Source: Holophagaceae bacterium (lineage in GTDB: Bacteria > Acidobacteriota > Holophagae > Holophagales > Holophagaceae). Taken from it: a stretch of DNA of 59,480 bases. Below the pieces are notes generated by a model. The model was not told the DNA's origin and did not search any database. It saw nothing but the letters and a program-made list of their open reading frames with translations. Position 1 is the first letter of the stretch. Every line of letters begins with the position of its first letter. The stretch spans positions 1 to 59,480 of the forward strand of contig JANYBM010000056.1 of the NCBI GenBank assembly GCA_025361125.1, in the 5' to 3' direction. Below are positions 17,463 to 53,535 of this stretch, piece by piece. The position numbers were made by a program, and so were the translations under genes.

Positions 17463-18719
17463 TCAGGCGTGTGTTCCCACTTTAGCCATGGCCTTCACGA
17501 TGGCTTGCTCCAGATCCGCCCATAGATCTTCAGGATTTTCGAGTCCCACGGATAGCCGAAGCAAACCAGGGCCAATGCCGCTGTGCGCTTTGGATTCCGC
17601 ACTCACCACCCGGTGGGTGAGGGCCGCGGGATGCTGGATCAAGGTGTCCACGGAGCCTAATGAAACCGCTGGGGTCATAAGCTCCAAGCTCCCCATGACC
17701 GTGGACGCGAAATCGAAATTCTCGACCTCAAAAGCGATGAGTGACCCTGGACCACGCATTTGGGTACCTACAAGACCCTTGGGATCGCCCCCTTCCAAGC
17801 CGGGGTAGTGGACCTCCTTGATCCCCGGATGGTCTTTCAATTTCTGCGCAATGAATTTCGCGCCTTCCTGGGCCGCCCGAACGCGCAAAGACAACGTGGG
17901 GAGGCCGCGATGCAGCAGGTAGGCGGCCAGAGGGTGCAATACCGAGCCTGTGATGACACGGACCTTCCGTAGTTCGGTGGCCCATTCAACATTGGTCGCC
18001 ACCACACCCGCCAACACATCGCCATGGCCGCCAATGAATTTCGTGGCGCTGTGCAGCACCATGGTGGCGCCAAGCTTCAATGGGTTTTGCAACACCGGGG
18101 TAGCAAAGGTCGAGTCCACCAGAACCGGAACACCACAAGCCTGGACTACCACGGATTCAATATCTAAAAGCGTCAGGGTTGGATTGGCGGGAGTCTCCGC
18201 GATCACCAGCACTGTATCTGAGCGCAGGGCCTCGCGGATGCCATCGGGCTCGGCCCAGGAGACCTCAAGACCCAGCATCCCCGAAGCGATCAGGTGATCC
18301 GATCCGCCGTAAAGAGGCCGCACCGCGACCACGTGGCCACCTCCCATGGATCGCGCGCAGTGCGCGCTCCCGCTCGCTCCGCTCTCGGACACGGGAACCC
18401 TTTGTTTTGCCGCCAGCAAGCAGGCTGTCATGGCCGCCATTCCCGAAGCGAAGGCCACGGATTCATCGGCGCCTTCGAGTTGTGCCAGGGCCTCTTCAAA
18501 ACGCCCTACAGTGGGGTTATACAGGCGCGAATAAACGGGATTGTGCTTGTCCTGGCCGCCCATGGCCATAAGCTCCAGACTCTCGCCACCCCGGGCCAGG
18601 TCATGCAGTGGGTAGGTGCTGGACAGATCCAGGGGGAGCGCGTGGACCCCGAGAATTGCCAGATCTTCTCGGCCCGCATGCACCGCCATGGTTTCAAAGG
18701 AAAGGGCTTGGTGCGGCAT
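17463..18719 (-). CDS. Trans-sulfuration family PLP enzyme (cystathionine synthase/lyase or methionine gamma-lyase-like)
   Basis: A cytosolic Cys/Met-metabolism PLP enzyme of 418 residues. Landmarks are YSRLYNPTVGRFEEALAQLE, FASGMAAMTA, the pyridine-stacking VRPLYGG, DSTFATPVLQNPLKLGA and the Schiff-base Lys in HSATKFIGGHGD. The methionine gamma-lyase Cys is absent (YGG instead of YGC), which favours a cystathionine gamma-synthase/lyase-like role, but specificity stays open. The protein is about 20 residues longer than its family because RVPVSESGASGSAHCARSM is inserted between LLAAKQ and GGHVVAV; the matching DNA is a copy of an intergenic repeat (18349-18401). GGAGG precedes the ATG. It faces an Lrp-type regulator across a phased palindrome array. 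Confidence 0.88.
   Translation of the reverse strand: MPHQALSFETMAVHAGREDLAILGVHALPLDLSSTYPLHDLARGGESLELMAMGGQDKHNPVYSRLYNPTVGRFEEALAQLEGADESVAFASGMAAMTACLLAAKQRVPVSESGASGSAHCARSMGGGHVVAVRPLYGGSDHLIASGMLGLEVSWAEPDGIREALRSDTVLVIAETPANPTLTLLDIESVVVQACGVPVLVDSTFATPVLQNPLKLGATMVLHSATKFIGGHGDVLAGVVATNVEWATELRKVRVITGSVLHPLAAYLLHRGLPTLSLRVRAAQEGAKFIAQKLKDHPGIKEVHYPGLEGGDPKGLVGTQMRGPGSLIAFEVENFDFASTVMGSLELMTPAVSLGSVDTLIQHPAALTHRVVSAESKAHSGIGPGLLRLSVGLENPEDLWADLEQAIVKAMAKVGTHA
18349..18401. repeat. Palindromic repeat inserted in frame in the PLP enzyme gene
   Basis: A 53-base stretch, from GATCGCGCG to GGGAACCCT, contains a CGCGC-GCGCG hairpin and GCTCGCTCCGCTC. It aligns over its whole length, at about three quarters identity, with intergenic DNA at 52731-52782. 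An 18-base core (GCGCGCAGTGCGCGCTCC) recurs exactly, inverted, at 44786-44803. It encodes the extra residues of the PLP enzyme. Confidence 0.8.
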
Positions 18720-30048: not shown

Positions 30049-30184
30049 TATCCGGGAGGGACCGCCTGCTCGCTCCGCTCGCCACTCCAACCGATCAGTT
30101 GCTCGCGCAACTTCCCGCTCGCAAGCTCGTGGAGGTGGGGACCCTCCTCCCGGACCCCCCACCTCTTGGTCGGGAGGCCCGCCC
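30049..30184. repeat. GC-rich intergenic repeat, copy A
   Basis: The element runs from TATCCGGG to GCCCGCCC. Both ends match, in inverted orientation, 44893-44970. Copy A carries about 65 extra internal bases. It contains GCTCGCTCCGCTCG and a GCTCGCGCAAC hairpin region. Its 3' end supplies GGGAGG seven bases before the ispD ATG, so the ispD ribosome-binding site is repeat-derived. Confidence 0.75.
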
Positions 30185-44714: not shown

Positions 44715-44785
44715 TCCCTGATTCATTACTGCGCCGAAGGCGCAACTGGGCCCGGGCTGACCACGCTCGCGACCCTGCGGGTCGT

Positions 44786-44803
44786 GGAGCGCGCACTGCG
44801 CGC
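44786..44803 (-). repeat. 18-bp palindromic repeat core
   Basis: The reverse complement of these 18 bases (GCGCGCAGTGCGCGCTCC) is identical to part of the repeat inside the PLP enzyme gene (about 18353-18370). It is flanked by more hairpins, such as CGACCCTGCGGGTCG. Confidence 0.7.
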
Positions 44804-44892
44804 GCAGCGGGGCCCCGCAGGGAGCGAGTCCCTGGTGCCGTTCGCGAAGGCGCAGCCTGAGCGATGGTCAGCTGACGCCCAAAAGACCTCAA

Positions 44893-50136: not shown

Positions 50137-50688
50137 TCAGCCCGCGTGCTGCTTCACCCAGGCGACATAGCGATCCATCCATTTCTGCATGAATTTGCGG
50201 CTGCCTTCGTTGATGTCCCCGGCTTCGTCGAAGAAACCTTCCTTGAACTGCAGGAACACTTCAGGCTGGCCCAGGGTGGGCACGTCCAGGGTCGCCAGGA
50301 TGTTGCGCAGGTGCTGCTGCGCCAGGGCGGTGCCGGTGGCGCCGGGGGACACGCCCACCATGCCCGCGGGCTTGCCCGCCCAGGAGCTCTTGCCATAGGG
50401 GCGCGAAGCGTGGTCGATGGCGTTCTTGAGTAGGCCGGGGATGGAGCGGTTGTATTCGGGCGTCACGAACAGGAAGCCATGGGACGCCTCCAGCTCGGCC
50501 TTGAGCCTCCGGACGCAGGGCCTCTGGTCGCCGTCCTCGTCCATATTGTAGAGCGGCAGGTCATCGATCCTCACTTGAGTGAACGTGAAGTCCGGGGGCG
50601 CCAGCTTGACGAGCGCATCCGCCAGCTTGCGGTTGAGGGACTCCTTGCGGAAGCTGCCGACGAGGACGGCTATCTGGTAATGGCTCAT
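50137..50688 (-). CDS. NADPH-dependent FMN reductase family protein
   Basis: The 183-residue flavodoxin-like protein has IAVLVGSFRKESLNRKLADA (FMN phosphate loop, residues 6-25), LPLYNMDED, FVTPEYNRSIPGLLKNAIDH (signature of the family) and GVSPGATGTALAQQHL. Members reduce FMN, quinones, chromate or azo compounds with NAD(P)H and protect against oxidative stress; the substrate here is unknown. The ATG at 50686-50688 has AAGGAG seven bases upstream and is chosen over an open extension to 50808. Confidence 0.93.
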   Translation of the reverse strand: MSHYQIAVLVGSFRKESLNRKLADALVKLAPPDFTFTQVRIDDLPLYNMDEDGDQRPCVRRLKAELEASHGFLFVTPEYNRSIPGLLKNAIDHASRPYGKSSWAGKPAGMVGVSPGATGTALAQQHLRNILATLDVPTLGQPEVFLQFKEGFFDEAGDINEGSRKFMQKWMDRYVAWVKQHAG

Positions 50689-50900
50689 GCGATCTCCTTG
50701 AAAAGCCGTGATGGATTTTGTTGGGCGATGCAGCCCCAGCAGCGATAGCCGTTCACCCATCTTCCTCCGGTACCGTCCGCGAGGTGGTTTTCTTCTGGGA
50801 TTTTTCAACTTCCATTCATCGGAAACGCAGCGTGGGTGGGCACCTTTCCTAAGACACCTACAATAGAGGTCTGTCCGTTCCCGCGTTTCTCTGGTTCCCC

Positions 50901-52628
50901 ATGTCCCCCGAGCCCGAAAAAATTGGCCGCTATGAGGTTGGATACGTCATCGGACGTGGTTCCATGGGCGTGGTCTATCTGGCCGTGGACCCGCTGCTCA
51001 AGCGTTCCGTGGCCGTCAAGATCATGCGGGGAAAAAGCGGAAACGCCTCTGAAACCATCGAGCGGTTCAAGCGCGAGGCGGAGATCAGCGCGAAGCTGAA
51101 CCACCCGAACATCATCACGGTCTACGACGTGGGCGTGGATCCGGAAATGGGACCCTTCCTCACCATGGAATACATCACCGGCGCGAGTCTGGCGCAAGTC
51201 ATCAAGCTGAACCTGCCGGTGGACGAGGTCATGAAATTGCTCCTGCAAGGCATGTCGGCCCTGCAGGCAGCCCAGCTGGCGGGCATCGTCCACCGGGATG
51301 TCAAACCCGAGAATATGCTGGTGAGCCAGACGGGCCATTTGAAACTCATGGATTTCGGCATCGCCCGGGGCGACCAGTCACGGCTGACCGCCGAGGGGGT
51401 GATGTTCGGCACCCCCACCTATATCGCACCAGAGCTTTTGACTGGCGGCAGCCCGTCTCCGGCCACGGACCGCTATGCCTTCGCCGTGACCGCCTTCGAA
51501 GCCCTCACTGGCGCCCTTCCCTACCAAGGCTCGAGCGTGGGATCGACGCTCTACCGCATCGTCCATGAACCGCCCGCGATTCCACCGGACCTTGCTCCAG
51601 AGCTGCAAGCCGTTTTCCTGCGGGCCCTGTCCAAGGACCCTGCCGCACGGTACCCGGACCTGCCTGAGTTCATGGAAGCGCTCATCAACGCGGCCCCCCT
51701 TGACCGGGAACCACGGGCGAAACTGCTGGATAGCCTGGATGTCGCCAATACGAACACATCCAATTTCAACTTCCTCCCCATCACCTCTGACAATTTGCCC
51801 GCGATCGCAACACCGGGGCCGGACTCCGACGCCTCGGCTTCCACAAGCCAGTCGGATCCCCGGTCCGGCGGGGTTGATCCCGATCCGCCGACTTACCCCC
51901 TTCATCTGGAATCAATCCCAGGATCAAGGTCAGCTTCCACGTTGGCTTTGGCCGAGCCATCCATAAGTCCGCCGAACGTGGAGACCCGCGAATTCCTTCC
52001 TCGAATCGGAACGGATCTCCCGGAGAATCAAGGCCCATCCTTTCCAAAATCGACGCCGTCGCCCACGCCCCAGGTGCTCCGACCGGTCCCCTCTGGCAAA
52101 CCTGGAAAAGGCGGCCACGGACTGCGTTGGGCTGCGCTCACCATTCTGCTGATGGGCGGTCTTGGCGTGGGCGGTTATTTCTTCAGGGGCCCCAAGCAGA
52201 TCGCGCGAACCATCAAAGTGCTCAGTGAGCCCGCGGGTGCCGCGGTCTACCTGGAGGGCCAGAAGATCGGCGAGACCCCCCTCGACCATGTCGAGGTCAG
52301 GGCTGGTGTTTCGATGCTCAGGGTCAAGATGGCGGGCTATCTCTCCCAGAGCTACCGCCTCCGGGAGGGTGAAAATTCGGTGAAGGTTGTGATGAAGCGG
52401 CCACCGCGCGTCGTCGCCGTGGTCACTGATCCACCAGGAGCCACTGTCTTTCTCAATGGCAATCCCATGGGCGTGTCGCCCATCCAGAATCTTGGGATTC
52501 CCGCCGAGGGATCCTCCCAATTGAAGATCACCCATGATGGCTACACCCCGTGGGAAACCGAGGTGGATGCGAACTTTCCCTTCCCGGATCTGATCAGGCT
52601 CACTCCGCTGCCAAAAGCCCGGCACTAG
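50901..52628 (+). CDS. Transmembrane Ser/Thr protein kinase with PEGA repeats
   Basis: The protein has 575 residues. A Hanks-type kinase domain spans about 8-265: GRGSMGVVY (Gly loop), VAVKIM (ATP Lys), HRDVKPENML (catalytic loop), MDFGIARG (DFG), GTPTYIAPELL (APE). All catalytic residues are present. A disordered Pro/Ser-rich linker follows, then one membrane helix near 408-428 (LRWAALTILLMGGLGVGGYF). The periplasmic part carries two PEGA repeats (LSEPAGAAVYLEGQKIGETP and TDPPGATVFLNGNPMGVSP), which may bind wall or surface ligands. It should pass an envelope signal to cytosolic targets. No phosphatase gene is adjacent. Confidence 0.94.
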   Translation: MSPEPEKIGRYEVGYVIGRGSMGVVYLAVDPLLKRSVAVKIMRGKSGNASETIERFKREAEISAKLNHPNIITVYDVGVDPEMGPFLTMEYITGASLAQVIKLNLPVDEVMKLLLQGMSALQAAQLAGIVHRDVKPENMLVSQTGHLKLMDFGIARGDQSRLTAEGVMFGTPTYIAPELLTGGSPSPATDRYAFAVTAFEALTGALPYQGSSVGSTLYRIVHEPPAIPPDLAPELQAVFLRALSKDPAARYPDLPEFMEALINAAPLDREPRAKLLDSLDVANTNTSNFNFLPITSDNLPAIATPGPDSDASASTSQSDPRSGGVDPDPPTYPLHLESIPGSRSASTLALAEPSISPPNVETREFLPRIGTDLPENQGPSFPKSTPSPTPQVLRPVPSGKPGKGGHGLRWAALTILLMGGLGVGGYFFRGPKQIARTIKVLSEPAGAAVYLEGQKIGETPLDHVEVRAGVSMLRVKMAGYLSQSYRLREGENSVKVVMKRPPRVVAVVTDPPGATVFLNGNPMGVSPIQNLGIPAEGSSQLKITHDGYTPWETEVDANFPFPDLIRLTPLPKARH

Positions 52629-52730
52629 GGCATTTCTGGAGTGAGAACCACATGGAAGGCAATGGCGGTGCAGGAGAGCGGAGAACGCCCATCTTCCCGC
52701 GCTACCCTCCTCATTTTCTCCGCTCCCGAC

Positions 52731-52782
52731 GATCGCGCGTGTACGCGCTCCTGCTCGTTCCCCTCGCAGAGGCGGGAACCCT
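52731..52782. repeat. Palindromic repeat, intergenic copy related to the PLP gene insert
   Basis: The stretch from GATCGCGCG to GGGAACCCT has the same order of parts as 18349-18401: a CGCG hairpin, CGCGCTCC, GCTCG and CGGGAACCCT, with about three quarters identity. It lies between the kinase gene and a membrane protein gene. Confidence 0.75.
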
Positions 52783-52824
52783 CCTCCGCGTAGTGCTTAA
52801 ATGGTTGTGTCAGCGGAGCCTGCC

Positions 52825-53535
52825 ATGCCTGATCCAGTCCACTTCGACCATGTGTCCATCGCTCCCTTCGCCTACATCAGCGAGGCCTGGGGGCGGGTGA
52901 AGGGGCAGTACTGGATGTTCCTCGGCGTGACGGTGGGGGGGATGCTCATCGCGGGCCTGGTGCCCTTGGCGGTGATGATGGGTCCCATGATGTGCGGCAT
53001 CTTCCTCTGCTACCGCGAGCAGGGACGTGGGAAACCAGTGAGCTTCGAAATACTGTTCAAGGGCTTCGACCACTTTCTGGAATCGTTCATTGCAGCCTTG
53101 CTGATGGTGGCGGGGAGCCTGGTGCTAGTGGTGCCGATGATAGTCCTGATCATGTTCTCGGGCGTGTTCCTGGGGATGGCCAGCGCCTCATCGCACGCGC
53201 CGCAGGAGGGCACCATCGGCCTGATCATCCTTCTCGCCGTCGGGGCCTTTCTGCTGATCATGCTGGCCTCGGTGCTCTTGAACCTGCTCTTTTCCTTCAC
53301 CTTCCCCCTGATCGTGGATCGCGGCATGAAGGGGATGGACGCCGTGAAACTGAGCATGCGCGCGGCCTACGCGAACATCTGGGGCTTGCTGGGTCTCGGC
53401 CTGGTGGTCTTCGCCGTGAGTCTGGCGGGCGTCTGTTTCTGCTACGTGGGCGCGTTCCTGGTCATGCCCATCACCTTCGGCGCCCACTGGATCGCCTATG
53501 AACGTGTGTTCGGCCTGGCGGAGGCGGATGCTTAG
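52825..53535 (+). CDS. Multi-pass membrane protein
   Basis: The protein has 236 residues with five or six hydrophobic segments: FLGVTVGGMLIAGLVPLAVM, LMVAGSLVLVVPMIVLIMFS, IGLIILLAVGAFLLIMLASV, LLNLLFSFTFPLIVDRG and LGLVVFAVSLAGVCFCYVGA. The motif FPLIVDRGMKGMDAVKLSMR with an amphipathic helix resembles the DUF975-like glycerophosphoryl/poly-membrane family of small integral proteins. The ATG at 52825 has GGAG six bases upstream; ATG 52801 is in frame but has none. Role unknown. Confidence 0.7.
   Translation: MPDPVHFDHVSIAPFAYISEAWGRVKGQYWMFLGVTVGGMLIAGLVPLAVMMGPMMCGIFLCYREQGRGKPVSFEILFKGFDHFLESFIAALLMVAGSLVLVVPMIVLIMFSGVFLGMASASSHAPQEGTIGLIILLAVGAFLLIMLASVLLNLLFSFTFPLIVDRGMKGMDAVKLSMRAAYANIWGLLGLGLVVFAVSLAGVCFCYVGAFLVMPITFGAHWIAYERVFGLAEADA

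Follow-up and report, generated by a model that had tools for sequence, protein, structure and literature searches.

In the window (the whole stretch of DNA analysed here, 59,480 nucleotides of a Holophagaceae genome), the gene for a PLP-dependent enzyme carries 57 additional base pairs that are missing from its relatives. Taken as a whole, the explanation we consider highly probable is that a copy of a Holophagaceae repeat was moved into the gene in trans, passed the filter of selection and has been kept as a neutral loop. The host gene and its insertion are as follows:

17463..18719, minus strand: gene for a PLP-dependent Cys/Met metabolism enzyme, host of the insertion (Pfam PF01053, 323.5 bits)
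18342..18398, minus strand: 57-bp in-frame insertion encoding 19 residues, RVPVSESGASGSAHCARSM, absent from orthologs and from the siblings’ empty sites
18340..18402, minus strand: repeat copy in the PLP gene, at its covariance-model limits (outer stem, hairpin 1, hairpin 2; 79.6 bits)
18353..18367, minus strand: hairpin 2 of that copy, GCGCGC-ACT-GCGCGC (DNA fold, pair counts)

The gene product (418 residues) belongs to the cystathionine gamma-synthase / methionine gamma-lyase family, with 9gj9/9haq as its closest solved relatives. An earlier note on this DNA had claimed about 19 extra in-frame residues before GGHVVAV and had proposed an alignment with orthologs; this alignment shows the window protein alone to have 19 additional residues, placed after ...LLAAKQ[RK] and before GGHVVAV; none of 12 orthologs from the genus and family carries them. 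At the DNA level, the same point is a clean ‘empty site’ in sibling species, which are about 85-90% identical, and the net insertion is 57 bp, the exact ends of which are ambiguous by a few G residues, as are the G-rich ends of RVPVSESGASGSAHCARSM.

Loop modelling, also suggested by the earlier note, predicts a disordered loop for the insert. In an AlphaFold2 model (mean pLDDT 76, pTM 0.78), with a structure alignment built on homologs that named genomes had yielded (Holophagaceae and Acidobacteria MAGs, Geothrix, Myxococcales and actinobacteria), it lies at the turn between the helix spanning residues 93-106 and the strand spanning 129-133; residues 110-126 have pLDDT values below 50 and the fold is otherwise recognisable. 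As the insert sits at a helix-strand turn and is predicted to be disordered, the enzyme most likely still works. The host gene is also under purifying selection, as judged from a dN/dS of about 0.06 between the window’s own genome and sibling G003 (0.08 between two siblings lacking the insert), a test that cannot place the insertion before or after that selection.

The window holds further copies of the same element, and one partial match:

52722..52783, minus strand: second copy, intergenic (covariance model, 69.8 bits)
30084..30146, minus strand: third copy, intergenic and long-form-like (covariance model, 37.1 bits, E 4e-5)
44786..44804, plus strand: 19 bp that match exactly, limited to hairpin 2 and its GGAG (window DNA search)

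The end-to-end alignment of the insert with 52731-52782, reported in the earlier note, holds: a window-internal search aligns 52723-52782 with the PLP insertion at 79% identity over 61 columns (E 2.6e-9), and a 43-base core, with as many as 3 mismatches allowed, has a single occurrence in the window and none in shuffled versions. The inverted core that the note had placed at 44786-44803 stands in part, in that 19 exact bases are shared on the opposite strand; we rejected it as a copy of the element, the model matching there at positions 34-50 only (17.6 bits, E 1.9). The surrounding DNA (44740-44880) is dense in intergenic palindromes, has only one hairpin in common with the element and is probably another type of repeat. 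The copy at 30084-30146 was absent from the earlier list. Separately, the reductase-like and membrane-protein genes that flank the 52722-52783 copy (window 50137-53535) have paralogs on another contig (C57, locus L103), where the gene for the membrane protein again has a copy of the element upstream of it; repeat and flanking genes may have been duplicated together.

Copies are abundant in the genome as a whole, which is a draft (3.13 Mb in 181 contigs, about 92% completeness), such that counts of copies and contexts are incomplete. An initial DNA search found 14 places, and the covariance model at least 49 copies at E < 0.05, a lower bound given that scoring covered 150 of the 2159 candidates from a first look; the further copies that the earlier note proposed to look for thus run to dozens, and the one in the PLP gene is the fifth-best match (E 2.6e-15). 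Nearly all lie outside genes, as assessed by inspection of ORFs and Pfam matches and by a codon-usage test (which called 157 of 185 coding segments correctly, and 5 of 300 shuffles as coding), and they occur in varied gene contexts and in both orientations, some of them directly upstream of genes. The model matched 15 of 37 sampled genomes, all Holophagaceae (Acidobacteriota), with no copies among those 37 in any other family of the class; a scan of 149 genomes across the phylum matched 11 Holophagaceae, plus a single outsider with a marginal score (E 4e-5). That one marginal hit aside, the repeat core was found in Holophagaceae only.

The core, some 57-63 bp, can fold into a conserved three-way junction on one strand: an outer stem, with a purine-rich, GAGG-like stretch on its 5' side, encloses an imperfect hairpin 1 and a perfect hairpin 2, the latter directly preceded by GGGAG in nearly every copy and followed by GAT. 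Among 10 copies from the same genome, aligned with MAFFT, both partners vary at 13 of 20 pairs, which gives 39 compensated cells where shuffles give 15 and slid controls no more than 1, for a structure drawn from one of those copies. Amongst 74 distinct copies from relatives the figures rise to 18 of 20 pairs and 279 cells (86 in shuffles, at most 27 in slid controls), for an alignment that was fitted to the covariance model and is biased towards it. On the modelled strand, G-T pairs outnumber A-C mismatches by about 2:1 (48:21 and 60:34), which is a weak hint, subject to the same fitting bias, that this is the strand that folds.

Several sub-forms can be told apart by eye, one of them with flanks such as GGCCGACATAGAGG...GGAGGGGCC and another, the GAGGAGGGTTCCC sub-form, being the type closest to the copies at 18349 and 52731 in the window. 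There is also a long form of about 150-153 bp, to which a further 5' hairpin and a 3' arm are added, and a nested type, which sits within another copy and breaks it up (L003, L010 and L011); nesting was read from the sequences themselves, a regular-expression search for nested copies having returned none. That copies are found inside copies argues for mobility of the element. Extended outer stems, e.g. CTTTGACAGGAC...GTCCTGTCAAAG, with an AAGG bulge before the core, were seen at L116 (about 1588-1676), L122 and L066, and suggest a longer conserved structure.

The PLP enzyme is not the only protein to have received such a segment: there are six in-frame insertions in unrelated genes of two genomes, and the five beyond the PLP enzyme were verified against orthologs. 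Two of the about 50 copies in the window’s own genome are in frame within genes, the second being in HutD, where about 20 residues split a stretch that is continuous in 8 relatives (the closest about 50-60% identical, with no match in any other member of the genus). Sibling G003 provides the remaining four: a 57-bp insertion between two CxxC motifs of PqiA, absent from five relatives, and in-frame long forms in a TMTC-like TPR membrane protein, a crotonase-like protein and a PAS-domain sensor protein, the orthologs of which are without them. Insertions into genes are found in both orientations, and none of these six coding copies is common to siblings.

Many other long ORFs that run across copies (e.g. 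L057, L064, L065, L066, L078, L083, L097 and L141) were rejected as in-frame insertions, since they have no family match across the copy or probably start downstream of it. Also in G003, a gene that was recognised as PlsC-like by eye from its sequence (L120, 1546-1608) has an in-frame long form with one TAG codon and is possibly a gene in decay. In sibling G001, a crotonase-like gene (L260) has a different insertion of ~30 residues in the same loop as the long element of G003, so that this loop is possibly an insertion hot spot or, alternatively, the G001 insert a degenerate copy.

Drawing on these observations, we propose a probable scheme for how the insert arose. It is one copy of a family of small, non-autonomous and dispersed palindromic repeats of Holophagaceae, the copies of which would be moved by an enzyme acting in trans, one that probably recognises the folded strand, and delivered to G-rich target sequences, GGAGG or GGGG for example. 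Selection would then remove most insertions into genes, the survivors being those with a length divisible by three, no stop codon and a tolerant loop to accommodate them, where they would add a neutral extra peptide.

G-rich words do flank many copies, and are shared by both junctions, where they can be read either as target duplications or as element ends. At the PqiA site a 6-bp GGAGGC is readable as a target-site duplication, and at the crotonase-like gene a near-repeat of about 12 bp was considered as one; the two sites disagree with each other. At L097 (about 1500-1700), ~30 bp from the start of a miaB-like gene are apparently repeated on the far side of a copy, as if by a long duplication upon insertion.

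A bolder extension, which we would not press and think rather improbable, is that the element stands for a new class of mobile DNA, in which the substrate of the putative enzyme is the three-way junction and not the ends of a sequence, and in which units of 57 bp or ~153 bp, being multiples of three and nearly always open in antisense, would be pre-adapted for life in protein genes. Of 35 core copies from the same genome, 31-33 are open in the three antisense frames and 9-19 in the sense frames, against 64-69% and 50-55%, respectively, of shuffles with the same composition; conserved motifs, GATAG among them, may be enough to account for this bias, which is no proof of selection for coding.

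The strong compensatory evolution could also be expected of a transcribed, functional RNA with a regulatory or processing role, one that spreads by duplication and enters coding sequence merely as a by-product. The excess of G-T pairs over A-C mismatches is what a folded strand would produce, and the copies directly upstream of genes would fit such a role; against this, a search of 4227 Rfam families with 301 bases around the PLP-gene copy gave no match up to E 10, copies are nested and sit in varied gene contexts in both orientations, and siblings do not have the coding copies in common. We regard a functional RNA as an unlikely origin for the insert.

Somewhat less likely still is a repeat of the REP/REPIN type, moved by a RAYT (a Y1 HUH transposase), for which the recognised unit would be GGAG plus a hairpin. 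The GGGAG directly before the perfect hairpin does resemble the tetranucleotide tag that precedes REP hairpins (PMC3733652, PMC6006769), and some relatives encode Y1_Tnp. However, the conserved word is GGGAG rather than the GTAG/GTGG or CGTC with a single stem-loop by which REPs are recognised (PMC3733652, PMC6006769), the bases that precede GGAG belong to hairpin 1 and covary with it, and the element is a three-way junction where REPs are single stem-loops. Y1_Tnp (PF01797) has no match in the window’s own draft genome (about 92% complete), nor in the copy-rich and nearly complete G008 and G014, and across the own genome and 36 relatives its presence showed no correlation with copies, leading us to reject the Y1 transposase as the mobiliser. 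Finally, an ordinary lineage-specific loop that resembles the repeat by chance or base composition has next to no probability, for although the insert has a high GC content and chance produces weak partial matches to it elsewhere in the window, the model match is strong (79.6 bits, E 2.6e-15), the 43-base core has no counterpart in shuffled sequence and the same kind of event is seen in five other genes.

With cultured relatives (genus Geothrix) and precise empty sites, the family provides a system for studying the movement of such repeats and the tolerance of proteins to random loop insertions. For annotation it carries a warning: a loop confined to one lineage can be mobile DNA.

Palindromic elements of Rickettsia (RPEs) were reportedly described by Ogata et al. 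in 2000 and 2002. The earlier note had likened the insert to these, as a parallel in an unrelated lineage; the analogy stands as regards in-frame copies in several genes, but cases outside Rickettsia were already on record, namely the intragenic GTAG/CGTC REPs, which encode 20-30 or more residues within ORFs of several species (Di Nocera et al. 2013, PMC3733652). Like those REPs, the Holophagaceae element is a high-copy palindrome that is mostly intergenic and occasionally coding; unlike them, it has no GTAG or CGTC tag, has an outer stem and two hairpins in place of a palindrome of 20-40 bp, and is found in a genome without a Y1 transposase match. MITE-type enterobacterial repeats are likewise on record as fused in frame to genes (PMC2229807), and with the enterobacterial and Neisseria repeats ERIC/RU-1, RU-2, RU-3 and Correia/NEMIS the element shares a non-autonomous, structured and sometimes gene-fused character; those repeats are about 100-200 bp long, and most of them have terminal inverted repeats and duplicate their target sites, whereas here there is a ~60 bp core with G-rich ends, its outer stem supplying inverted ends and the G-rich junction words being possible duplications, none of them clear. 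Palindromic repeats in protein-coding genes of Wolbachia (Ogata et al. 2005, as cited in PMC2229807) are similar in being palindromic and protein-coding, in an alphaproteobacterial host. We found no palindromic family with a three-way junction described for Acidobacteriota in the open-licence papers searched.

The closest likeness in function is that to the RPEs, which are also short dispersed palindromes, intergenic as well as in frame in unrelated conserved genes, where they form a tolerated loop; many copies, six genes with in-frame insertions and a palindromic structure with covariation are all found here. RPEs measure 105-146 bp (PMC2229807), a size that the long form (~153 bp) approaches, and of the R. 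conorii copies reported first, nearly half lie in ORFs (PMC10969869), as against 2 of about 50 in frame in this genome. By analogy, then, we would call the element RPE-like in function, claiming for it membership of neither the RPE nor the REP family. With its unrelated phylum and a conserved three-way-junction core of ~60 bp setting it apart from the RPEs, it shows that protein-decorating palindromic repeats also arose far from Rickettsia, and with a distinct conserved fold.
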